Below, piece by piece: positions 510 through 17,446 of a stretch of DNA of 33,781 bases. How positions within the stretch are numbered: the first letter of the stretch is position 1; the number at the start of each line of letters is the position of its first letter. Under the pieces are notes generated by a model. That model made no database searches, was not told the DNA's origin, and was given only the letters and a program-made list of their open reading frames with translations. The position numbers and the translations under genes are program-made. Origin of the DNA: an uncultured delta proteobacterium (GTDB lineage Bacteria > Myxococcota_A > Polyangia > Haliangiales > Haliangiaceae); NCBI GenBank assembly GCA_900696455.1, contig CAADGB010000472.1:1-33781 (forward strand). Reading direction: 5' to 3'.

Positions 510-2360
<1,851 letters not shown>

Positions 2361-2379
2361 GTGTTCTCCCGTTCCTTAC

Positions 2380-2412
2380 CTGGGTGCGTGCTGGGTGCGT
2401 GCTGGGTGCGTG
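2380..2412. repeat. Three tandem 11-bp repeats in operon spacer
   Basis: The unit CTGGGTGCGTG occurs three times without a gap (2380-2390, 2391-2401, 2402-2412), followed by a partial CTGG. It fills half of the 64-nt spacer between the activase stop and the ribosome site of the dehydratase-like gene. It may be neutral slippage, or it may affect translation or processing of the second cistron. Confidence 0.9.
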
Positions 2413-2424
2413 CTGGCTCGACGG

Positions 2425-5994
<3,570 letters not shown>

Positions 5995-6023: not shown

Positions 6024-6061
6024 ACTGACGCGTCAGTCTAGTCGTGGACTGACGCGTCAGT
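6024..6061. promoter_or_regulatory. Twin 14-bp palindromes, probable TetR-type operators
   Basis: ACTGACGCGTCAGT is a perfect palindrome and occurs twice, at 6024-6037 and 6048-6061. The centres are 24 bp apart, and the copies lie within a longer 19-bp direct repeat. They lie 30-67 bp upstream of the activase ATG on the minus strand and at least 149 bp upstream of the plus-strand lipoprotein ATG. They therefore most likely control the activase-dehydratase operon. A TAGACT box, a possible -10, abuts or overlaps each copy on the minus strand. Size and symmetry fit TetR-family operators; the cognate regulator is not known. Confidence 0.75.
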
Positions 6062-6209: not shown

Positions 6210-7397
6210 ATGCGCCGGGGTATTCTCCTGGCGACGGCCACAGCGCTCGTCGCCTGCAAGTCTTCGTCTACACAGGGATCTGGCCCTGGCACGGGCAGCG
6301 GCTCGGCGGTGCCACCCACCGCCGACGCGGTACCACCCACCGCGCCGGGCGGCCTGCCCGGCTTCGCCCAGCTCGCCTCGGTGGCCACGGTCCCGGCCGC
6401 GATCGCCCGGATGTCGGCGACCGACCCGGCGACCCTGGCCTGGTACCTCTTCCTGTATCTCAACTGGCCCGCCCTGCCCGGCCAGCGCGGCGCGCCGGAT
6501 CCGGCCGGGAAGCTCGGGACCACGCCGACGGTGTGGCAGACGTGGAAGGAGGTCCACGAGGTCTACCTGGGAGGCGGCGCGCGACCGCTGCCGTGGGACG
6601 ACGGCGGGCCGGTGGGGCCGCCGCTCCTGTCGCAGGGCGAGATCGACGGCACCACCCTCAGCGACGTCAACGGCAACCCGATCACCTACACGGTGGCGAT
6701 GAACCAGGGCGCGTTCGAGTACCTGGTGTCGCGTCAGCTCTACGGCTGGGGCGGCCAGGCGGCGCTGCGCCAGGCCGGCGCCGCGCCGGTGGCGTTCCCG
6801 ACGACCGCCATGGAGGTGAAGGCGTCGTGGAAGATCCTCGACCCCGTCGCCGACCAGGATCGCCTCGATCACTATCTGGTCGCGCAGGCCCGGCTCGTGC
6901 CCGACGGTGGCGGCCCCGCCACCACCGTCGCGGTGGGCCTGACCGGGCTGCACGTCACCTCCAAGGCCCTGCCGAGCTGGGTGTGGATCACGTTCGAGCA
7001 GATCGAGAACCCGACGACCACCGGCGTCCCGCTCCGGCTGCCCGTCGACGCCGCGACCGCGGCGGTCAACGCCCGCTTCCAGCAGGCGCTGGCCGGCACG
7101 CCCTTCGCCTACTACCAGGCCAACGGCGTGCAGACCGAGGCCACGGTCGGCGGCCAGCCCACGCTCCTCGCCAACACCCAGATCGAGACCCGCTTCCAGA
7201 CCTCGAGCTCGTGCCTGACCTGCCACGCCCTGGCCTCGGTGTCGACCGGCGCGCGGGCGCGCCTCGACTTCTTCACGATGCAGGCCGGCAACCTGGTCGG
7301 GCCCACCGGCGCGCCGCCGACGGCGCCGTTCGGGCCCGGCCCCGATCAGTTCACCGCGCTCGACTTCGTGTGGTCGATGCGAGAGGCCCGGCGATGA
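6210..7397 (+). CDS. Lipoprotein with a single CxxCH haem-binding motif
   Basis: This 395-aa protein has a short lipoprotein signal (RRGILLATATALVAC, lipobox LVAC, lipidated Cys16). A Ser/Gly/Pro linker follows with a duplicated AVPPTAD-type unit. A longer frame opens at 6156, but the ATG at 6210 is chosen because it gives the clean signal and has a purine-rich ribosome site. The body carries TTMEVKASWKIL and LPSWVWITFEQIEN, which recall (from memory) a poorly described bacterial family with one covalent haem site. That site is CLTCH here, Cys335/Cys338/His339, near the C-terminus. It is expected to be exported and lipid-anchored, with haem attached by the cytochrome c maturation system. Its stop overlaps the ATG of the VioB-N-like gene by 4 bp, so the two are translationally coupled. 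An electron-transfer role is inference only. Confidence 0.72.
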   Translation: MRRGILLATATALVACKSSSTQGSGPGTGSGSAVPPTADAVPPTAPGGLPGFAQLASVATVPAAIARMSATDPATLAWYLFLYLNWPALPGQRGAPDPAGKLGTTPTVWQTWKEVHEVYLGGGARPLPWDDGGPVGPPLLSQGEIDGTTLSDVNGNPITYTVAMNQGAFEYLVSRQLYGWGGQAALRQAGAAPVAFPTTAMEVKASWKILDPVADQDRLDHYLVAQARLVPDGGGPATTVAVGLTGLHVTSKALPSWVWITFEQIENPTTTGVPLRLPVDAATAAVNARFQQALAGTPFAYYQANGVQTEATVGGQPTLLANTQIETRFQTSSSCLTCHALASVSTGARARLDFFTMQAGNLVGPTGAPPTAPFGPGPDQFTALDFVWSMREARR

Positions 7398-9412
7398 GCG
7401 CCCTCGATCGACCGCGGCTCCACTTCGTCGGTCAGATGGCGGTGTCGACGCCGACGGTCAACAACAACAACTGGGACCTGGTGGTCGAGCCCGAGCAGGC
7501 GACCCTCTACCCGAAGTTCCTGGCCATGAGCGACGACCAGTTCCGCCAGGCCATGAAGGAGCTGGTGGTCCTGAACCTCGGGATCATCCACGAGGGCCTG
7601 ATGCCCACGCTCGAGGGCAACTGGAACTTCTACGGCGACAACTCGGTGGTGTGGAGCGGCGCGGTGGTGACCGGGTACGATCCGCCGGGCGGCGGCCGCG
7701 TCACCACCGGCGATCCGGTGATCGGGCAGCCGGTGACGATCGCCGGCAACGCCTGGGGCGACGACACCACGCCGGCGATCATCGTCGACCTCGATCCCAC
7801 CAGCGACTTCTCGTCGCAGATGTTCATCCCGCGCTTCGCCGTGGGTGACGGCGGCGCCTCGGCCGCGGGCGCCGACCTCGGCCCGCGCCTGATCGCGCAG
7901 TCCACCGATCAGGTCGCGATCCCGCGCACCCACGCCCGCTGGCTCGATCAGTTCCGCAACCTGGCGATGTTCCCCGACGCCACGTTCGCCGCCACCTGGC
8001 AGCTCCCGCTGCCGGCCGGCACGCTCACGTTCGCGGACGCGGGCTCGCCGGCGGTGGCGGCGCTGGCCGCCGCGGCGACGGCGCCGGGCGCGGCCGGCCT
8101 GGTGGTGCGGTTCGCCACCTACTTCTTCAACCGCTCCTACACCGACCCCCAGCTCGCGAAGCTGTTCGCGCTCGGCAAGACCGTCCGCAACGCGTCGATC
8201 GGCGTGGTGCTGGGCACGATCGCGCCCTGGCGCCAGGGCGAGTGGGGCACGGTGCCCGCCGGCCGCCGCCTCAACCCGGTGGCCCAGCTCCAGAACCCCC
8301 TGCCCGACCGCTTCGTCGGCGCCTACGAGCTGGCGCCGGCGACCGCGGCCCTCACCGCCGACGGCTCGGCGATCGTGCTCGACCTGGTGGCGGCGTTCCG
8401 CGACACCGTCCTGCCGCCGCCGCCGCCGCCCGCCGCCGCCCCCGAGCCGACCGATCTCGATCCGACCCCGCCCCCCGATCCGTCGATCATCTCCAAGGCC
8501 GATCTCGGCCCGGCGATCCTGCAGGTCGTGGACGCCGCCGGCGTCGTCCATGACCTCGGTCCGGTGCCCTACGACCAGGCGACGTACCTGGCGGGCGCCG
8601 GCCTGGTCGAGCTCCCGCTGCCGCCCGGCGTCACCGCCGCCACCGTCGCCGCCGGCACGCTCCAGCTCGTCGCGCCCGAGGCCTCGGCCCAGCCGCTCCT
8701 GCTCGAGCGGCCGCTGGTGGCCGAGAGCGACGATCGCGCCACGTACCTCACCCTCGGCCAGCGCGCGACCATCACCGTCAACGTCCGCGCCCGCGGCGTC
8801 GCGCCGGCGGAGCCGGTGGGCGTGACCGTGCTCCAGTACCGCTCGCTCGAGACCCTGTCGCCGGCGCCCGACGGCACGCACCCCATCCCGGCCAAGCTGA
8901 CCCTGCCGGTGCCGGGCCCCGACGGCAAGGTCGCGCCGGTGGTCACGGTGTCGCCCGAGGGCGGCTTCACCGCCGCCGCCGGGAACCTGGCGCTCACGCT
9001 CACCGCCGTCGCCCCCGGCATGTGCATCCTCCTGCTCACGCCCGACGGCCAGGCGCCACCGTCGGACCTGAACGGCTTCTCGCCGGCCTGGACCTGGCTC
9101 TACTTCGTCCACGTCCGGGTCCTGCCCGCCGACGCCGACCTCGACGCCATCCCCGACGACCAGGTGACGTGGGCGCTCGTCTACGAGCGCGTGCTCCGCT
9201 ACTTCTACAAGGTCTTCCCGGTGATGGACGACCACCTGCCGCTGAACGACAAGCAGGCGTGCATGCGCAGCGCGCAGATGCTCCTGCTCCTCACCGACCG
9301 CGCCACCTGGGACTCGACCCTCTACATGCCGGTCACCCGCGAGCTGTCCGACGGCAAGCGCCGCCTGCTCCACCGCTGGTGCCAGCGGGTGCTGCGCGGC
9401 GAGGAGACCTGA
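7394..9412 (+). CDS. VioB N-terminal-half-like protein, lacking the ferritin-like catalytic half
   Basis: This 672-aa protein has no signal peptide; GAGAGG lies 7 nt before the ATG. Compared from memory with violacein enzyme VioB (iminophenylpyruvate dimer synthase, ~1000 aa), several blocks match in order. The N-terminus MSALDRPRLHF resembles VioB MSILDFPRIHF. TIAPWRQGEWGTVPAGRRLNP parallels VioB GLWRRGELASYPAGRLLRP. A DLGPAILQVVDAAG block follows. Near the end, YERVLRYFYKVFPVMDD and YMPVTRELSDGKRRLL match VioB YRHVMAYYELVYPFMSD and YMPSTRELSAPKARLF. The protein stops where VioB continues into its ferritin-like haem-dependent domain. A Pro-rich stretch (~residues 340-362) divides it into two halves. 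It is coupled by ATGA overlaps to the CxxCH lipoprotein upstream and the nucleotidyltransferase downstream. The function of this VioB region is not established, so no reaction is assigned. Confidence 0.7.
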   Translation: MSALDRPRLHFVGQMAVSTPTVNNNNWDLVVEPEQATLYPKFLAMSDDQFRQAMKELVVLNLGIIHEGLMPTLEGNWNFYGDNSVVWSGAVVTGYDPPGGGRVTTGDPVIGQPVTIAGNAWGDDTTPAIIVDLDPTSDFSSQMFIPRFAVGDGGASAAGADLGPRLIAQSTDQVAIPRTHARWLDQFRNLAMFPDATFAATWQLPLPAGTLTFADAGSPAVAALAAAATAPGAAGLVVRFATYFFNRSYTDPQLAKLFALGKTVRNASIGVVLGTIAPWRQGEWGTVPAGRRLNPVAQLQNPLPDRFVGAYELAPATAALTADGSAIVLDLVAAFRDTVLPPPPPPAAAPEPTDLDPTPPPDPSIISKADLGPAILQVVDAAGVVHDLGPVPYDQATYLAGAGLVELPLPPGVTAATVAAGTLQLVAPEASAQPLLLERPLVAESDDRATYLTLGQRATITVNVRARGVAPAEPVGVTVLQYRSLETLSPAPDGTHPIPAKLTLPVPGPDGKVAPVVTVSPEGGFTAAAGNLALTLTAVAPGMCILLLTPDGQAPPSDLNGFSPAWTWLYFVHVRVLPADADLDAIPDDQVTWALVYERVLRYFYKVFPVMDDHLPLNDKQACMRSAQMLLLLTDRATWDSTLYMPVTRELSDGKRRLLHRWCQRVLRGEET

Positions 9413-10068
9413 TGACCGGGCCGGCCGCCTCCCGCTACACCGGGAGCATGGCCCTCGACCTCGTCGCCGAGCTCGAGTCCCTCGTGGACGGCTTCGACCG
9501 CGACGGCGTGGAGTACGCGCTCTGTGGAGGCCTGGCGGTCGCGGTCCATGGCCATCCTCGCGCGACCATGGACATCGAGGTGCTCGTCCGCGCCGATCAG
9601 CTCGCCGACGCCGTGCGCTCGGCGCGCGCCTGCGGGTTCGATGTCCCGGCGCGCCGGATGACGTTCGGGCTGCGCGAAGGCAAGCCGCGCGAGGTCCAGC
9701 GAGTCTCGAAGCTCGACGCCGCCACCGGGGAGCTCCTCCCGCTCGACCTGGTCGTCGCCGGACCGTCACTGACGGCGATCTGGGACGGACGAACGGAGGT
9801 GCCGTGGGGCGACCGACGCATCTGGACCGTATCGCGCGCCGGGCTCATCGCGATGAACCGCCTGGCGGCGCGTCCCCAGGACGTCGCCGACCTCGCCGCG
9901 CTCGAGGGCCGAGCCGATGACGCCGACTGCCCCCAGCGCCTCGCCGGCCGTCGACATGTCGGCAGGGGCGATCACACGTCGGCTGGAGCCGGTGCGCGCG
10001 CTCTACCGGCTGATGGTCTCGCTGCGTGGGATCGCCGCGCCGGGCGCCACCGCGCGGGGACCAGGTGA
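9412..10068 (+). CDS. Nucleotidyltransferase-fold protein (AbiEii/DUF6036-like)
   Basis: The ATG overlaps the previous stop (ATGA) and has GAGGAG 5 nt upstream, so it is preferred over the internal ATG at 9448. The protein fits the minimal nucleotidyltransferase pattern: Gly39-Gly40 (CGGLAVAVHG), then TMDIEVLV giving Asp54 and Glu56 as metal ligands. The C-terminal part has GLIAMNRLAARPQDVADLAALEG, typical of the family end. Members transfer nucleotides to RNA, proteins or small molecules; some are toxins, but no clear antitoxin is present. Residues after about 170 read like out-of-frame sequence and overlap a small frame starting at 9917. The natural end may be near 9920, with a frameshift (real or sequencing) extending it to 10068. 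Confidence 0.6.
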   Translation: MTGPAASRYTGSMALDLVAELESLVDGFDRDGVEYALCGGLAVAVHGHPRATMDIEVLVRADQLADAVRSARACGFDVPARRMTFGLREGKPREVQRVSKLDAATGELLPLDLVVAGPSLTAIWDGRTEVPWGDRRIWTVSRAGLIAMNRLAARPQDVADLAALEGRADDADCPQRLAGRRHVGRGDHTSAGAGARALPADGLAAWDRRAGRHRAGTR

Positions 10069-12148: not shown

Positions 12149-12835
12149 ATGCTGTCCCGGCTCGACGCGATCCGCCGCCGCGCCCGCGCCCACCCCGCCG
12201 CCGCCCGCGCGGTCGCGCTCCTGCGCCTGCTCATCGGCTTCGCCTTCCTGCCCGCCGGCGTGCGCAAGGTCCTCGGCCAGCCGTTCACCGACGCCGCCAA
12301 CCACGGCCCGTTCCACGACTTCCTGCCCGCCTTCCACGCCACCGGCGGCTTCTACCGCGCGGTCGGCGTCGTCCAGCTCGTGGCCGCGCTCCTGCTCATG
12401 ACCCAGCACCGGGCCGCCCTCGGCGCCGCCCTCGCCCTGCCGGTGATGAGCGCGATCCTCGCCTTCTGCTGGAGCACGGCGGTCTACCCGACCGCGATCG
12501 TCGTGACCCTCATGGTCGCCGGCCTGTGCGGCCTCCTGGTCTGGGAGCTGCCGGCGTGGCGCCCGCTGGTGGCGCCGGCCGCCGGCGCCGTGCCCGCGCC
12601 GCCCGATCCGCCCGAGGCCCTCGATCGCCCGGTGTGGGCGGCCGCGGGCCTCGCGGTCGCCGCGCTCTACGCCACCGCCTGCGCCCTCGAGGGCGGCGTC
12701 TACCGGCCGCGGGGCATGGACCTCGGCGCGCCCGGCTTCTGGCTGCTCGGCGCGATCGCGCTGGTGCCGCTCGTCGCCTACGCCGTCGCGCGCCGGCGGC
12801 GACCGCGCCGCGCCCTCACGCCATCCGCGTCGTGA
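12149..12835 (+). CDS. DoxX-like integral membrane protein
   Basis: This 228-aa hydrophobic protein has about six predicted membrane segments. The DoxX-type opening LLRLLIGFAFLPAGVRKVLGQPF is followed by ATGGFYRAVGVVQLVAALLL. A Pro-rich loop near residues 150-165 separates the four-helix DoxX-like part from two further helices (AAAGLAVAALYATACAL and FWLLGAIALVPLVAYAVA). DoxX-like proteins are small membrane subunits linked to quinone or thiosulfate oxidation and redox stress in some bacteria, but most are uncharacterised. The frame opens at 12059, but the ATG at 12149 fits both the start of membrane-protein character and the -10 box just upstream. Its last 20 bp overlap the end of the convergent DUF917 gene. 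Confidence 0.72.
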   Translation: MLSRLDAIRRRARAHPAAARAVALLRLLIGFAFLPAGVRKVLGQPFTDAANHGPFHDFLPAFHATGGFYRAVGVVQLVAALLLMTQHRAALGAALALPVMSAILAFCWSTAVYPTAIVVTLMVAGLCGLLVWELPAWRPLVAPAAGAVPAPPDPPEALDRPVWAAAGLAVAALYATACALEGGVYRPRGMDLGAPGFWLLGAIALVPLVAYAVARRRRPRRALTPSAS

Positions 12836-13934
12836 GCTCCTCGACCGGCACCCACGGCCCGCCGTAGCCCAGGCCCTGGAGGTCGAGCTGGAACTGGGCG
12901 ATGAAGTACGGCGTGCGCATGGCGGCCGGCGCCGGCACGCCGACCAGCGCCACGCGCGTCCCCACCGCGAGCTCGGCGTCGGCGTTGGAGAACGGCACGC
13001 CGGCCTCGGTCAGGTAGCAGAGCAGATCGGGCGCCAGGGCGAGGGGCGCGGGGCGGCGCGAGCTGTACGCGACGAGGTTCTCGTTCTGGCTGAAGACGCG
13101 GACGGTGCTGCCGTCGTCGCAGGCGAGCTCGACGGTGGTGTGGTCGAAGCCGCCCGCGGTCTCGGCCGCCACCGCCGCCACCGTGCCGCGGGCGAGCAGG
13201 AAGCCGCCGGTGTAGGCGAGCGCGGCCTCGACCTTGGCGTCGGGCGCGGCGGCGCGCAGGGCGGCGCCCAGCCCCCGGGCGTAGGTCGTGGCCTGGGGGA
13301 TCGAGGCCGCGCGCGCGGCGGCGCCGCTCATCGTCCACGCCGCCACGCCGGCCTCGTTGCCGAAGCCCTCGGCGCCGCCCACCACCGCGCGCAGGACGTT
13401 GTCGGCGACCGCCGCGCTCGACACCGTCACGCTCATGACGTCGGTGGGCGAGGCCAGCACCATGGGCGAGATCGCGAGGCCGGCCTCGGCGAAGGTGGTC
13501 TCGGCCAGGCTGGGCACCGCGCGCCGGGCGCCGGCGGCGTCGAGCACCGGCAGGGGCGTCGGCAGGCTGGCCGCCACCGCCAGCGGGATGAAGCTGTTGC
13601 CGCCGCCGAGCTCGACCGGGACCACGAACGAGAGCGCCGGCTCGCCCGCGCGCTGGGCCCGCGCCGACAGCTCGGCGAAGGCGCGGGTCGCCGGCGACCA
13701 GTCGAAGGTGCCGGAGGCGGCGTCGTCGGGTGAGCCGGCGAACGCGCTCATCGCGCCGCAGGCCCCGTCGTCGAGGTCGGCGGGCGCGACCAGCACCGGC
13801 AGCGTGCCGGCCGCGACCAGGCTGTCGATGATCATCTGGCCGACGACGCGGGGGCCGCCGCCGCCGGAGCCGAGGAAGGTGGCGCCGGCGAGGAGGTCCT
13901 CCAGCGCGCAGCGATCGAGCGGGGTGGTCTTCAT
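12816..13934 (-). CDS. DUF917 family protein
   Basis: This 372-aa cytoplasmic protein has the glycine-rich signature LGSGGGGPRVVG near residue 23 and the general pattern of DUF917 proteins (LGGGNSFIPLAVAA; ISPMVLASPTDVMSV; TPYFIAQFQLDLQGLGY). The family is often found beside hydantoinase/oxoprolinase-like genes, but its chemistry is not established. Here no hydantoinase is adjacent. Instead the ATG overlaps the stop of the 1171-aa kinase (ATGA at 13931-13934), so both proteins come from one mRNA. The 3' end overlaps the DoxX-like gene tail-to-tail by 20 bp. Confidence 0.78.
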   Translation of the reverse strand: MKTTPLDRCALEDLLAGATFLGSGGGGPRVVGQMIIDSLVAAGTLPVLVAPADLDDGACGAMSAFAGSPDDAASGTFDWSPATRAFAELSARAQRAGEPALSFVVPVELGGGNSFIPLAVAASLPTPLPVLDAAGARRAVPSLAETTFAEAGLAISPMVLASPTDVMSVTVSSAAVADNVLRAVVGGAEGFGNEAGVAAWTMSGAAARAASIPQATTYARGLGAALRAAAPDAKVEAALAYTGGFLLARGTVAAVAAETAGGFDHTTVELACDDGSTVRVFSQNENLVAYSSRRPAPLALAPDLLCYLTEAGVPFSNADAELAVGTRVALVGVPAPAAMRTPYFIAQFQLDLQGLGYGGPWVPVEELTTRMA

Positions 13935-16900
13935 GTCGGGCGTTCCTCCAGGCGCGCCAGGAGCGCGCGGGCGCGGCGCAGGTCGACGGTGTCGCCGCCG
14001 TCGCGCACGCGCTCGAAGGCGGGGACCAGCACGGCGCGGGCGCTCACCCGGTCGCCGGCGTCGAGGTCGAGCGCCGCCGTCGCCACCGCCACCCGCAGGA
14101 CGAGGGTGTCGGCGCCCAGGGCCTGGGCGTCGCGACGGGCGGCGGCCAGGGCGGCGCGGGCCGCGGCCGGCGCGCCCTGCGCCGACAGCGCCCGGCCCTC
14201 CAGGCACAGGAGGTCGGCGCGCAGCGGCCGCTCGTTGCGCGCCTCCGACCACGCCACGCCCTCGCGCGCGACCGCCAGCGCCTCGGCCGGCTCGGCGAAC
14301 AGGAGCAGGGCGTCGGCGAGGAGCCCGGTGATGAGGGTGTGGCCGGCGCCCTGCCCGATCGCCTGCCACTCCGCCCACACCGCCCGCATCTCGTCGAGGT
14401 AGCGGCGATCGCGCTCGCGGTGCGCCAGGGCCCAGGCCCGCAGGGTGCGGGCCAGGATCATGTAGGCCGGGAACGGCGCGCCCAGGCGGATGAGGGTCTC
14501 GCTGCCCTCGAGCGTGGCCTCGACGTCGCGGCGCAGCGCGGCCAGGAAGGTCCCGACCTGGATCGCGATGGCCTCGGTGAAGCCGTGGCCGAGCTCGCGG
14601 GCCAGCGCCACCGCCTCGTCGGCGCGCTGGCGCGCCAGCTCGGGCCGGCCGCTCGCCCACGCCCCCCACGCCCCGCCGGTCATGCAGGTGATGCGCGGGA
14701 CCTGGCCGAAGCGCTCGGCGTGGAGCGGCGCGCGCGCGTCGCTCCACAGCGCCAGCACCCGCTGCACGTTCTCCTCGCAGCCGGCCAGATCGCCGGCCCA
14801 GAACTGGGCGTTGGACAGGGCGAAGCGGCCCTCGAGCTCGAGGTCGACGTCGCCGGCGTCGCGCGCGATCTCGAGCGCGCGCTCGGCCAGGCGCAACGAC
14901 GACGTGATGTCGCCGCGGAACAGGTGGACCGCGGCCTGGCCGAACAGCACGGCGAAGGCCTGGGCGCCGCCGGCCACCCCCAGCGACTCGCACAGCGCCG
15001 CCGCCCGATCGTAGGCGGCGGCGGTCGCCGGCGAGCCGAAGCCGTCGAGGATGAGGGCGCAGGTGCCCCGGCCGAGCTGCAGCGCGAGCTCGGCGCGATC
15101 GCGCTCGGCGCCGGCGAGGCCGCGGTCGTCGAGGAGCGCGAGCGCCCGCTCGAACGCGATCCGGGCCCGCGGGTACGCGGCGCGGGTGAGCAGCGACTCG
15201 CCGGCGGCCGCCGCCCACGCCGCCTCGCGCGCCCGATCGCCGGCCTGCCCCCAGTGCCAGGCCAGCGCCACCGGATCGCGGCGCCGCGCGTCGAGCCAGC
15301 CGGCGACGCGGCGGTGGAGCTCGGCGCGCCGCGCCGGGGCGATGCCCTCGACCAGCACCTCGCGCACCCGGTCGTGGGTGAAGCGCCAGCCGCCGACGTC
15401 GGCGTCGACCACGCCGGCGTGCTCGGCCGCCCCCAGCATCGCCGCCAGCCCGGCGCCGGGGCCGAGCGCGGCCAGCATCTCGAGATCGAGCTCGCGGCCG
15501 GCGATCGCCGCCAGCTCGCACAGCGGCAGGACGTCGCCGGGCAGCCGGGCCAGGCGATCGCGCCGCGCCTGCTCGAGCTGGGCGACGGTCAGCGCCGGCG
15601 GCAGCCGCATCGTCGCGATCCGATCGAGGCCGCCGGCCTGGCTGGCCAGGAGCCGCAGGGCCTCGACCACGTACAGCGGCACGCCGCCGGTGCCGTGGTG
15701 GAGGAGCTCGACCAGGTCGGCCCGATCGCCGAGCGGCCCCAGCACCGCGGTCGCCAGCTCGGCCAGCTCGCGGCGCTCGAGCGGCGCGAGCGCCACCACC
15801 TCCACCCCCGGCCCGCGCACCGCGGCCGCGGCCTCGGTGCGGGCGGTGGCGACGACGAGGAGCGGCGCCTGCGCGGCGACCCGGGTCATGGCGCCGAGCA
15901 GGGCCAGGCTCTCCGGTCCCGCCCAGTGCAGGTCCTCGAGCAGGATGAGCGTCGGGCCGCGGGCGGCGCGCACCAGGGCCTCGACCGCGCCGAACAGCAT
16001 CACCTGCAGGGTCTGGGGATCCATGGGCGGCGGCGCCAGCGGCCCGGCGCCGATCAGCTCGCCGACGTCGGGCACGACCAGCGCCAGGAGCGGCCACGGC
16101 ACCGCGGCGCCGGGCGCGGCCTCGAGCGCGAGCAGGCGCACCGGCTCCTGCCACGCCTGGTAGGCGCCGCCGCCGGCCGCGACCTCGCCGCCGACCATCA
16201 CCGCGAAGCCGGTGACCAGGGCGTGGGTGCGCAGGTCGTCGATCAGGCGCGACTTGCCGACGCCGCTGTCGCCGGTGACCGCCACCACGCCGCCGTGGCC
16301 GCGGCGGGCGCGGGCCAGGGCCTCGCGGAGCTGGGCGCGCTCGCGGGTGCGGCCGACCAGCCGCGCCGCGGCGACCAGGCTGCGCTGGGCGTCCGCGTCC
16401 TCGCCCTCGCCGAGCACGCCGGTGCGGGCGAGCAGGCGCAGGGCCTGGGCCGCGCTCGACGGCCGGCGTTCGGGAGCGTGGGCGAGCAGGCGCTCGACGG
16501 TGTCGACGAGGGCCGCGCTCGCCGCCGCCGGCAGCGACGGATCGTGCAGGGTCAAGGTCGGCGGCAGGCCGCTGGCGCGCAGGAGATCTTCCTCGCTGCG
16601 CCCGAACGGGTGGTGGCCGGCCAGGAGCTCGTAGGCGACGATGCCGGCGGCGTAGAGATCGGCGGCGACCGTGTGCGGCTCGCCGCGCATGACCTCGGGC
16701 GCGATGTAGCCGAGGGTCCCGGCCGGGCGGTGATGCTCGCCGCTCTCCAGCGCCAGGCCGAAGTCGAGCACGCGCACGCGGCCGTCGGCGACCAGCACGT
16801 TGGATGGCTTGAGGTCGCGGTGGCGGATGCCGCGCCGGTGCAGGTAGTCGAGCGCCTGCAGCATCTGGGCGATGAAGGCGACCCGCGCCGCCAGCGGCAG

Positions 16901-17446
16901 GCCGCGGGCGGCGGTGGTGATCGGGCGCGCGTCCTCCAGCAGCTCGAGCACGAGGAACGGCCGCCGCTCGTCGTCGAAGCCGTAGTCGAGGACGCTGATG
17001 ATCGACGGGTGGCGGAGCGAGGCCAGGATGCGGAACTCGGTGGCGATGGCCAGCCGCATCGCCAGCGCGCTGTCGCCGTCGGGCCGCGGCGACGGCGACG
17101 GCCGCTCCTGCCGCGTCGGCGCCTCGTCGCCGCGCTCGGCGACCGCGGCCCGAGCGGCGGGCGTCGCCGCCAGCGTGTGCCCGGCCGTGTCGAAGGCCGG
17201 ATCCGTCACCGCCGTCCCGACCTCGCCGCCGGGCGCGCCGCCGATCTCGCCGCCGATCTCGCCGCGGGGCGGCGCCACCGCCGGCAGCGTGACGCCGGGC
17301 CGCGACCGCACGGCCAGCCGCTTCACCGCCACCTCCGCGCCCGTCAGCCGGTCCACCGCCCGGTACACGGTCCCCATGCCGCCCTCCCCGAGCATCCCGG
17401 TGAGCGCATATCGACCCGCCCCGACCTGATCCGTCGATTCTGCCAT
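13931..17446 (-). CDS. Serine/threonine protein kinase with AAA-type ATPase and helical-repeat region
   Basis: This 1171-aa protein begins with an STK domain: glycine loop GEGGMGTVY (20-28), Lys42, alphaC Glu137, HRDLKPSN (Asp211), DFG (Asp228), APE (249-251). All catalytic residues are present. An ATPase domain follows, with P-loop GDSGVGKS (392-399) and a Walker-B-like LILLEDLHWAG, then winged-helix-like and long Ala/Leu/Arg-rich TPR-like repeats to the end. This is the PknK/MalT-like architecture common in myxobacteria, usually signalling hubs that bind partners through the repeats. There is no transmembrane segment. An unusual low-complexity insertion of about 85 residues splits Lys42 from alphaC. 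It is transcribed from a near-consensus promoter just upstream and is coupled to the DUF917 gene downstream. Target unknown. Confidence 0.9.
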   Translation of the reverse strand: MAESTDQVGAGRYALTGMLGEGGMGTVYRAVDRLTGAEVAVKRLAVRSRPGVTLPAVAPPRGEIGGEIGGAPGGEVGTAVTDPAFDTAGHTLAATPAARAAVAERGDEAPTRQERPSPSPRPDGDSALAMRLAIATEFRILASLRHPSIISVLDYGFDDERRPFLVLELLEDARPITTAARGLPLAARVAFIAQMLQALDYLHRRGIRHRDLKPSNVLVADGRVRVLDFGLALESGEHHRPAGTLGYIAPEVMRGEPHTVAADLYAAGIVAYELLAGHHPFGRSEEDLLRASGLPPTLTLHDPSLPAAASAALVDTVERLLAHAPERRPSSAAQALRLLARTGVLGEGEDADAQRSLVAAARLVGRTRERAQLREALARARRGHGGVVAVTGDSGVGKSRLIDDLRTHALVTGFAVMVGGEVAAGGGAYQAWQEPVRLLALEAAPGAAVPWPLLALVVPDVGELIGAGPLAPPPMDPQTLQVMLFGAVEALVRAARGPTLILLEDLHWAGPESLALLGAMTRVAAQAPLLVVATARTEAAAAVRGPGVEVVALAPLERRELAELATAVLGPLGDRADLVELLHHGTGGVPLYVVEALRLLASQAGGLDRIATMRLPPALTVAQLEQARRDRLARLPGDVLPLCELAAIAGRELDLEMLAALGPGAGLAAMLGAAEHAGVVDADVGGWRFTHDRVREVLVEGIAPARRAELHRRVAGWLDARRRDPVALAWHWGQAGDRAREAAWAAAAGESLLTRAAYPRARIAFERALALLDDRGLAGAERDRAELALQLGRGTCALILDGFGSPATAAAYDRAAALCESLGVAGGAQAFAVLFGQAAVHLFRGDITSSLRLAERALEIARDAGDVDLELEGRFALSNAQFWAGDLAGCEENVQRVLALWSDARAPLHAERFGQVPRITCMTGGAWGAWASGRPELARQRADEAVALARELGHGFTEAIAIQVGTFLAALRRDVEATLEGSETLIRLGAPFPAYMILARTLRAWALAHRERDRRYLDEMRAVWAEWQAIGQGAGHTLITGLLADALLLFAEPAEALAVAREGVAWSEARNERPLRADLLCLEGRALSAQGAPAAARAALAAARRDAQALGADTLVLRVAVATAALDLDAGDRVSARAVLVPAFERVRDGGDTVDLRRARALLARLEERPT

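Follow-up and report, generated by a model that had tools for sequence, protein, structure and literature searches.

VioB, the enzyme described by the NCBIfam model TIGR04492, is an iminophenyl-pyruvate dimer synthase, and RebD and StaD are its functional relatives. Free-standing versions of the first 580 residues of VioB, which occur apart from the ferritin-like domain, offer a way to study that half on its own. A passage of a 2021 review (PMC9705886) describes a VioB structure as still missing and reports that VioB has haem b and acts as a catalase. Here we analyze a 33,781-nucleotide stretch of DNA from an uncultured delta proteobacterium of the family Haliangiaceae (GenBank assembly GCA_900696455.1, contig CAADGB010000472.1, positions 1 to 33,781), hereafter the window, in which a gene for a predicted exported haem lipoprotein (P1) is directly followed by a gene for a protein that corresponds to the front half of VioB (P2). 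This pair recurs in four phyla, often with a gene resembling those of ring-opening enzymes and a kinase gene nearby, and gives the impression of a small-molecule system not described before, not of a route of pigment synthesis. Among the publications judged by title or by the start of the abstract, none treats a VioB half that stands alone or is paired with a haem protein, most subscription journals lying outside the search.

A stand-alone counterpart of the VioB N-terminal half

The features of the gene pair within the window are as follows.

6210 to 7397, plus strand: P1, a predicted exported lipoprotein of 395 residues with one c-type haem motif, beginning MRRGILLATATALVACKSSS (translation of the open reading frame; lipobox LVAC at residues 13-16 by eye).
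7212 to 7226, plus strand: CxxCH motif of P1, CLTCH at residues 335-339 (read in the translation).
7394 to 9412, plus strand: P2, stand-alone VioB N-terminal-half protein of 672 residues (VioB model and BLASTP).
8708 to 9130, plus strand: predicted immunoglobulin (Ig)-like beta-sandwich of P2, residues 439-579 (structure model and fold search).
9107 to 9388, plus strand: segment of P2 with the best VioB-model match, residues 572-665 against model positions 487-581, ending in YMPVTRELSDGKRRLL (profile and BLASTP).

The ATG of P2 overlaps the TGA of P1 (ATGA at 7394-7397), so that the coordinates and the overlap of stop and start codon given in the original prediction are correct. The likeness to VioB, which had been proposed block by block, proved to be real. 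The VioB model matched P2 with E = 6e-24 and 83.9 bits over two stretches; this score lies under the curated cut-off of 1250 for the VioB equivalog. By BLASTP, residues 1-666 of P2 aligned with residues 1-578 of VioB at 25% identity (E = 5e-23), with the LDxPRxHF, PAGRxLxP and YMPxTRELSxxKxRL blocks all lying within the alignment. The VioB reference sequence used here was validated by its score of 1922 bits over the full TIGR04492 model (cut-off 1250). Profile comparison also gave a match, in which the profile built from 13 members of the window's subfamily (A7) reached a probability of 99.9% against VioB 1-579, compared with 0.2% for a reversed VioB control.

P2 stops where the ferritin-like domain of VioB starts. 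When the whole genome was searched, positions 1-292 and 487-589 of the VioB model fell on the P2 gene, and positions 595-698 fell on another gene, located on contig C396 and encoding a 502-residue protein with the ferritin-like domain PF12902. A Pfam scan with E values up to 1 gave no match for P1 or P2, PF12902 included, and searches of the Protein Data Bank (PDB) with P2, by sequence and by profile, found no solved relative.

By inspection, P2 is leaderless: its conservation with VioB begins at residue 1, and the frame upstream of the P2 ATG is closed by a stop after 12 codons in locus L061 and after 6 codons in locus L038. Residues kept in all 13 aligned sequences of the window's subfamily include T21, N23, N24, W77, D132, Q142, D330, Y393, E438, Y451, M611, Y644 and M645, while no histidine and no cysteine is kept in at least 11 of the 13. 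For a protein homologous to this half of VioB from end to end and devoid of conserved histidine or cysteine, the most plausible view is that P2 has retained the part of VioB that handles the substrate.

Indole alkaloid synthesis as a context found no support among the scanned neighbours: no violacein-type gene (vioA, vioC, vioD or vioE) was recognized by domain in the 11 window stretches scanned with Pfam, which do not include all open reading frames of the window, and no genome-wide search for such genes was made.

Conservation and phylogenetic distribution of the gene pair

A first scan of genome contigs yielded seven P2 loci from Myxococcota, Acidobacteriota and Verrucomicrobiota. Matches to the P2 profile were found in 7 of 30 genomes of the window's own family, and in phylum-wide draws in 4 of 282 genomes of its own phylum, 7 of 247 acidobacterial and 2 of 240 verrucomicrobial genomes. 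The draw counts are lower bounds, with 4 to 7 first-look candidates scored per genome and misses possible; the own phylum was drawn twice, with 282 and 266 genomes. Among 72,556 plasmids searched by tblastn, a single P2 match was obtained, on a plasmid of the cyanobacterium Gloeothece verrucosa PCC 7822.

A midpoint-rooted tree of 22 VioB-half relatives, in which two long branches were flagged, separated the window's kind (type A, 16 members) from a sister subfamily (type B, 6 members) with a support of 100/100. A fragment at a contig end (L073) and a candidate with E = 6e-5 and no BLAST match (L075) were excluded from the tree and from all counts. The type A and type B profiles matched each other with an hhalign probability of 100%, and against VioB the values were 99.9% for profile A7 and 98.0% for profile A8.

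Among the 16 type A loci, 11 have P1 as the gene immediately upstream of P2 and in the same orientation (the window, L002, L003, L005, L006, L012, L007, L066, L008, L013 and L061), and these pairs span Myxococcota, Acidobacteriota, Verrucomicrobiota and the cyanobacterial plasmid. In five of the pairs the two genes overlap by four bases; in the others 16 to 112 bases separate them. The identity matrices of P1 and P2 over the 11 pairs correlate with r = 0.967, a value reached in 0 of 5000 permutations and to which host kinship contributes.

Within the window's own genus, P2 was found in six of seven genomes and P1 in the same six, with G306 holding neither. In one genome (G307, loci L004 and L172), P2 (L004) and P1 lie on separate contigs, P1 having the divergent BcrAD gene for a neighbour just as it does in the window. 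The end of a eutB-like gene, recognized by eye, precedes P2 in this genome, and the split may be a rearrangement or a misassembly. P1-like matches occurred in 14 of 266 genomes of the own-phylum draw, and the three with E values of at most 1.4e-113 belong to the three genomes with a type A P2, adjacent each time; in the acidobacterial draw, P1-like matches occurred in 12 of 247 genomes, and the two with E < 1e-150 adjoin P2. Since the P1-P2 arrangement recurs in distant genomes, the pair is not a matter of chance. It forms a conserved two-gene unit, and neither of the results named in the original prediction as refuting it, a missing profile match to the VioB N-terminal region or unconserved neighbours, was obtained.

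The haem protein and its possible relation to cytochrome P460

Judged from its sequence, P1 is an exported mono-haem c protein. A cysteine follows a hydrophobic stretch in 8 of the 11 pairs; by eye, a canonical lipobox is present in P1 of the window, L003, L006 and L012, and the proteins of L007, L066 and L061 resemble signal-peptidase-I substrates. Among 32 aligned P1 relatives, the haem-motif residues C335, C338 and H339 are invariant together with W207, and E326 is kept in 31 and K204, H248 and W259 in 30 each. The structure model of P1 (mean predicted local distance difference test score, pLDDT, 32.5) was too poor for a fold search, and a profile search of the PDB returned seven rows, six methyltransferase sequences and one adhesin, with E values of at least 0.16, which were taken as chance.

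A likeness to cytochrome P460 was pursued because one of 11 scanned P1 relatives matched the Pfam family Cytochrome_P460 at E = 0.01. For the comparison, 15 P460 proteins of the window's own phylum were aligned. Aligned with hhalign, the P1 and P460 profiles gave P values of 0.003 around FPxxAMEVKASW and 0.0016 around CxxCH, compared with about 0.5 for reversed-profile controls, and the P460 model scored 17.5, 11.6 and 10.9 bits on the relatives L168, L062 and L097, above the best shuffled sequence at 3.0 bits. These results, together with the lysine kept in 30 of the 32 relatives, are consistent with P1 being a cytochrome P460 or c'-beta-like enzyme acting on NO, hydroxylamine or peroxide, with P2 serving a separate step and the whole forming a stress or nitrogen-compound system. 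On the other side, the hhalign matches cover 16-17 columns with probabilities of 11-16%, P1 of the window itself scored 2.8 bits, under the best shuffled sequence, and the P1 model is of poor quality. P1 may or may not resemble cytochrome P460, and the explanation built on such a likeness we regard as unlikely.

As a side observation, one acidobacterial genome of the draw (L166) has a P1-like gene with two similar open reading frames of 83 residues on either side of it, at 5365-5616 and 8331-8582.

The ferritin-like domain and the sister subfamily

The original prediction had stated that no ferritin-like domain is encoded elsewhere in the window, and this was upheld: the 7.98-Mb genome holds one PF12902 match, on contig C396 and thus outside the window. 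No PF12902 match was found in 7 of the 11 genomes that hold both P1 and P2 (G304, G305, G307, G308, G059, G311 and G395), and a match was found in four (G000, G085, G299 and G310); the 11 comprise ten genomes with an adjacent pair plus G307, and of the seven negative genomes, completeness is listed as 75% for one and 86% for another, and two carry no completeness value. Judging from these genome sequences, the pair can apparently do without the ferritin-like domain. The use by P2 of the stand-alone ferritin-like protein of contig C396 in trans was considered as well and is weakened by the same seven genomes.

In type B, a separate PF12902 gene adjoins the VioB-half gene in two of the six loci (L037 and L061), and the third gene in both encodes an exported lipoprotein that lacks CxxCH, with 51.6% identity between L037 and L061. 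These sets occupy positions 4378-8554 of L037, from a genome of the window's class, and 492-4902 of L061, from Gloeothece. Another two of the six are tandem copies with a distant P1-like gene between them (L074, 6169-11433, from a genome of the verrucomicrobial draw), and the remaining two (L068 and L072) showed neither a ferritin-like nor a P1-like neighbour by BLAST.

P1 haem c, outside the cytosol, is the only redox centre recognized in the type A pair. The pair could be read as a direct two-component oxidase, in which substrate binding falls to P2 and the redox role that VioB holds in one chain falls to P1 with its haem c, P2 either reaching the envelope leaderless or meeting P1 before or during export. 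The ATGA overlap in five of the 11 pairs, the matched divergence of P1 and P2, the seven pair-holding genomes without a ferritin-like match and the absence of conserved histidine or cysteine from P2 all speak for such an arrangement, as does the haem b reported for VioB; furthermore, the type B proteins beside a separate ferritin-like gene show that a VioB half can partner a separate redox module. Direct electron transfer between P2 and P1, however, faces a topology problem because P1 is exported and P2 leaderless, as far as their leaders can be judged by eye, and c-type haem is attached outside the cytosol. In addition, Gloeothece and G258 hold a ferritin-like gene and an exported lipoprotein together, so that the exported partner does not just stand in for the ferritin-like protein. 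Taken together, we consider the direct oxidase somewhat unlikely. The original prediction is supported in part: its VioB homology and its conserved unit stand, as does the apparent independence of the ferritin-like domain, and the redox or scaffold function that it suggested is a conjecture.

Enzyme and kinase genes near the pair

Two further genes lie on the P2 side of the pair in the window.

12816 to 13934, minus strand: S-methyl-thiohydantoin-desulfurase-like (S-Me-THD-like) protein of 372 residues (PF20906, E = 2e-27; PF06032, E = 8e-26; tblastn from acidobacterial neighbours).
13931 to 17446, minus strand: serine/threonine kinase with an AAA_16 domain, 1171 residues, its stop overlapping the ATG of the S-Me-THD-like gene (domain scan, tblastn).

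The scores of the S-Me-THD-like product, 91.4 bits for PF06032 and 96.4 bits for PF20906 against a gathering score of 27, place it in the superfamily. Its distribution was followed over 12 haem-associated loci, namely those of type A whose genome also encodes P1 (the 11 adjacent pairs and L004), using tblastn limits of E = 1e-3 in a first search and 1e-10 in a later one. The gene lies near P2 in seven of the 12 loci (the window, L003, L004, L006, L012 and two acidobacterial loci), carrying both PF06032 and PF20906 in the acidobacterial two, and it is convergent with P2 in six of the seven, these two included; in L012 the two genes share a strand. The search at E = 1e-3 found no such gene in the other VioB-half and P1-like loci covered by it.

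A close relative of the kinase-AAA gene adjoins the S-Me-THD-like gene in six of the 12 loci: the window, L003, L006, L012 (via L180), L007, where only the AAA part was seen, and L066. The two genes overlap by ATGA in the window and in L066, and in L180 they are convergent. More distant kinase/AAA genes (24-33% identity) directly follow P2 in L008 and L013/L038, without an S-Me-THD-like gene. The association of the two genes spans Myxococcota and Acidobacteriota. What is new here is the presence of the S-Me-THD-like gene (7/12) and of the close kinase-AAA relative (6/12) at the haem-associated loci, and the finding is better founded and larger than first described, comprising the pair plus the S-Me-THD-like and kinase genes, all built of known protein kinds.

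A passage in PMC11055893 discusses PF06032 proteins as likely hydantoinases that are not experimentally characterized. The S-Me-THD-like neighbour points to a cyclic amino-acid derivative. More generally, the recurring neighbours (haem c protein, S-Me-THD-like enzyme and kinase) hint at the substrate class and the partner.

Predicted fold of P2

An AlphaFold2 model of P2 built from 8 sequences (mean pLDDT 67.6, predicted template modelling score 0.70) shows an Ig-like domain at residues 439-579 and a helical C-terminal end. When the model was compared using VIA-align, Z scores of about 10 were obtained to Ig-like domains of intimin and of S-layer proteins, these fold matches concerning residues 439-579 only. 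The predicted Ig-like fold is a common one, without functional meaning. It does fit a reading in which P2 has a binding or structural task, P1 uses its haem for general electron transfer and the co-occurrence of the two reflects shared regulation only, and so do the lack of conserved histidine or cysteine in P2 and the several relatives without a recognized partner. Set against these points are the end-to-end homology of P2 to the front half of a catalytic protein, the co-divergence of P1 and P2 and the enzyme family nearby in 7 of the 12 loci, and we judge a purely structural role to be quite improbable.

A proposed two-compartment relay

Our first choice, held tentatively and in preference to direct contact of the two proteins in the envelope, is that P1 and P2 form the core of a conserved small-molecule gene set and work as a two-compartment relay, whose likeliest role would be the metabolism of an amino-acid-derived heterocycle. 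In the cytosol, P2 would bind or organize a substrate that derives from an amino acid and resembles a hydantoin or an imine, joined there by the S-Me-THD-like enzyme where this is present; the product would then exit the cytosol, and the haem c of P1 in the envelope would oxidize it or drain electrons from it. The kinase-AAA sensor gene near the set may control the gene set. The substrate class, the division between compartments, the direction of electron flow and the control by the kinase are all put forward here as presumed parts of the relay.

The proposal draws on the VioB homology over the whole of P2, the adjacency and matched divergence of P1 and P2, their joint presence in six of the seven genomes of the genus, the leaderless P2, the seven pair-holding genomes without a PF12902 match, the S-Me-THD-like and kinase-AAA genes nearby and the likely hydantoinase nature of PF06032 proteins. 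Several observations weigh against it. To our knowledge, no substrate, product or activity has been described for any member. Four type A relatives (L067, L069, L070 and L071) have no P1 alongside, and the genome of one of these P1-less loci (G557) gave no P1-like match anywhere; the coupling of P1 and P2 is therefore not obligatory. The haem family is also wider than the pair: weaker P1-like matches occur in 11 of 266 own-phylum and 10 of 247 acidobacterial genomes, and no VioB-half neighbour was found in the ten own-phylum loci inspected, standing for 10 of the 11 genomes, or in the ten acidobacterial loci, standing for 7 of the 10. In G336, G319 and G483 both families are present but apart, and P1-like genes were found on 49 plasmids, of which one also matched P2. 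Conversely, the two type B loci whose lipoprotein lacks CxxCH indicate that haem is not needed by all VioB-half proteins.

The enzyme and kinase genes invite similar caution. In L002, L005, L008, L013 and L061 (5/12), the 10-20 kb on the P2 side of the pair showed no S-Me-THD-like gene, and for this reason the gene may be accessory. Where it is present in the window, it lies 3.4 kb from P2, and the interval holds an SPFH protein and other open reading frames. Its product matched the S-methyl thiohydantoin desulfurase model NF058532 with E = 2e-6 and 26.9 bits against a cut-off of 450, and because this score is far under the desulfurase-model cut-offs, only membership in the superfamily is claimed. 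The kinase-AAA genes, for their part, belong to a large and common family.

A broader possibility, which we regard as rather doubtful, is that the front part of VioB constitutes a module for substrate handling that is independent and mobile and can exchange its redox partner: a fused ferritin-like domain in VioB, a separate ferritin-like protein in part of type B, and an exported haem c protein in the present pair, which together with the S-Me-THD-like enzyme and the kinase-AAA sensor would form an undescribed system making or breaking an amino-acid-derived heterocycle across the envelope. If true, such a pathway, distributed over four phyla, would represent a new kind of small-molecule gene cluster, whose members are now annotated as hypothetical proteins (in Gloeothece).

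Other features of the window

On the side of P1, the opposite strand carries a BcrAD_BadFG/DUF2229 coenzyme A (CoA)-enzyme-activase gene and a neighbour encoding 616 residues (513 to 5994, minus strand). Both are 86-94% identical in L002, L003, L006 and L172, where they likewise lie upstream of P1. Between them and P1, the palindrome ACTGACGCGTCAGT occurs in two perfect copies (6024-6037 and 6048-6061; chance expectation 0.12, allowing up to two mismatches), and near copies are found in relatives of the genus. That the palindromes at 6024-6061 could serve the pair as an operator was weighed and rejected, since they stand beside the divergent BcrAD gene (start 4675) in L006, with the P1 start at 6748. 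Because they stay there, 2 kb from P1, they look like an operator of the BcrAD/DUF2229 gene.

On the other side of the pair, an open reading frame at 9412-10068 (plus strand) starts within the P2 stop (TGATG) and appears nucleotidyltransferase-like by eye; Pfam at a limit of 0.001 did not recognize it, and tblastn against 12 other loci found no counterpart.

Comparison with known systems

The closest characterized protein is VioB, to whose residues 1-578 nearly the whole of P2 (1-666) corresponds. P2 differs from it by lacking the ferritin-like domain, by scoring 83.9 bits where the VioB model demands 1250, and by being paired with an exported haem c protein.

The nearest arrangements are the split VioB-like units of G258 and of the Gloeothece verrucosa plasmid, which contain a protein of the same VioB-half family (100% profile probability) with an exported lipoprotein adjacent. 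They belong, however, to the separate subfamily (100/100), their lipoprotein has no CxxCH, and a ferritin-like gene is adjacent.

On the side of the haem protein, cytochrome P460 and cytochrome c'-beta (PF16694) share with P1 a single CxxCH in the C-terminal part, preceded by FPxxxxVK-like and WxW-like motifs in the same order, but P1, with 395 residues, is about double their length (P460 frames mostly measure 166-230 residues) and the profile match is weak. Plasmid 1 of Paracoccus denitrificans encodes a protein of the P1 haem family with 25% identity by BLASTP; there (L063, 3314-8329) the P1-like haem protein follows a tyrosinase, without a leader by eye, and a 577-residue protein without a Pfam match, whereas in the window and its relatives the haem protein is joined to a VioB half, which the Paracoccus locus lacks.

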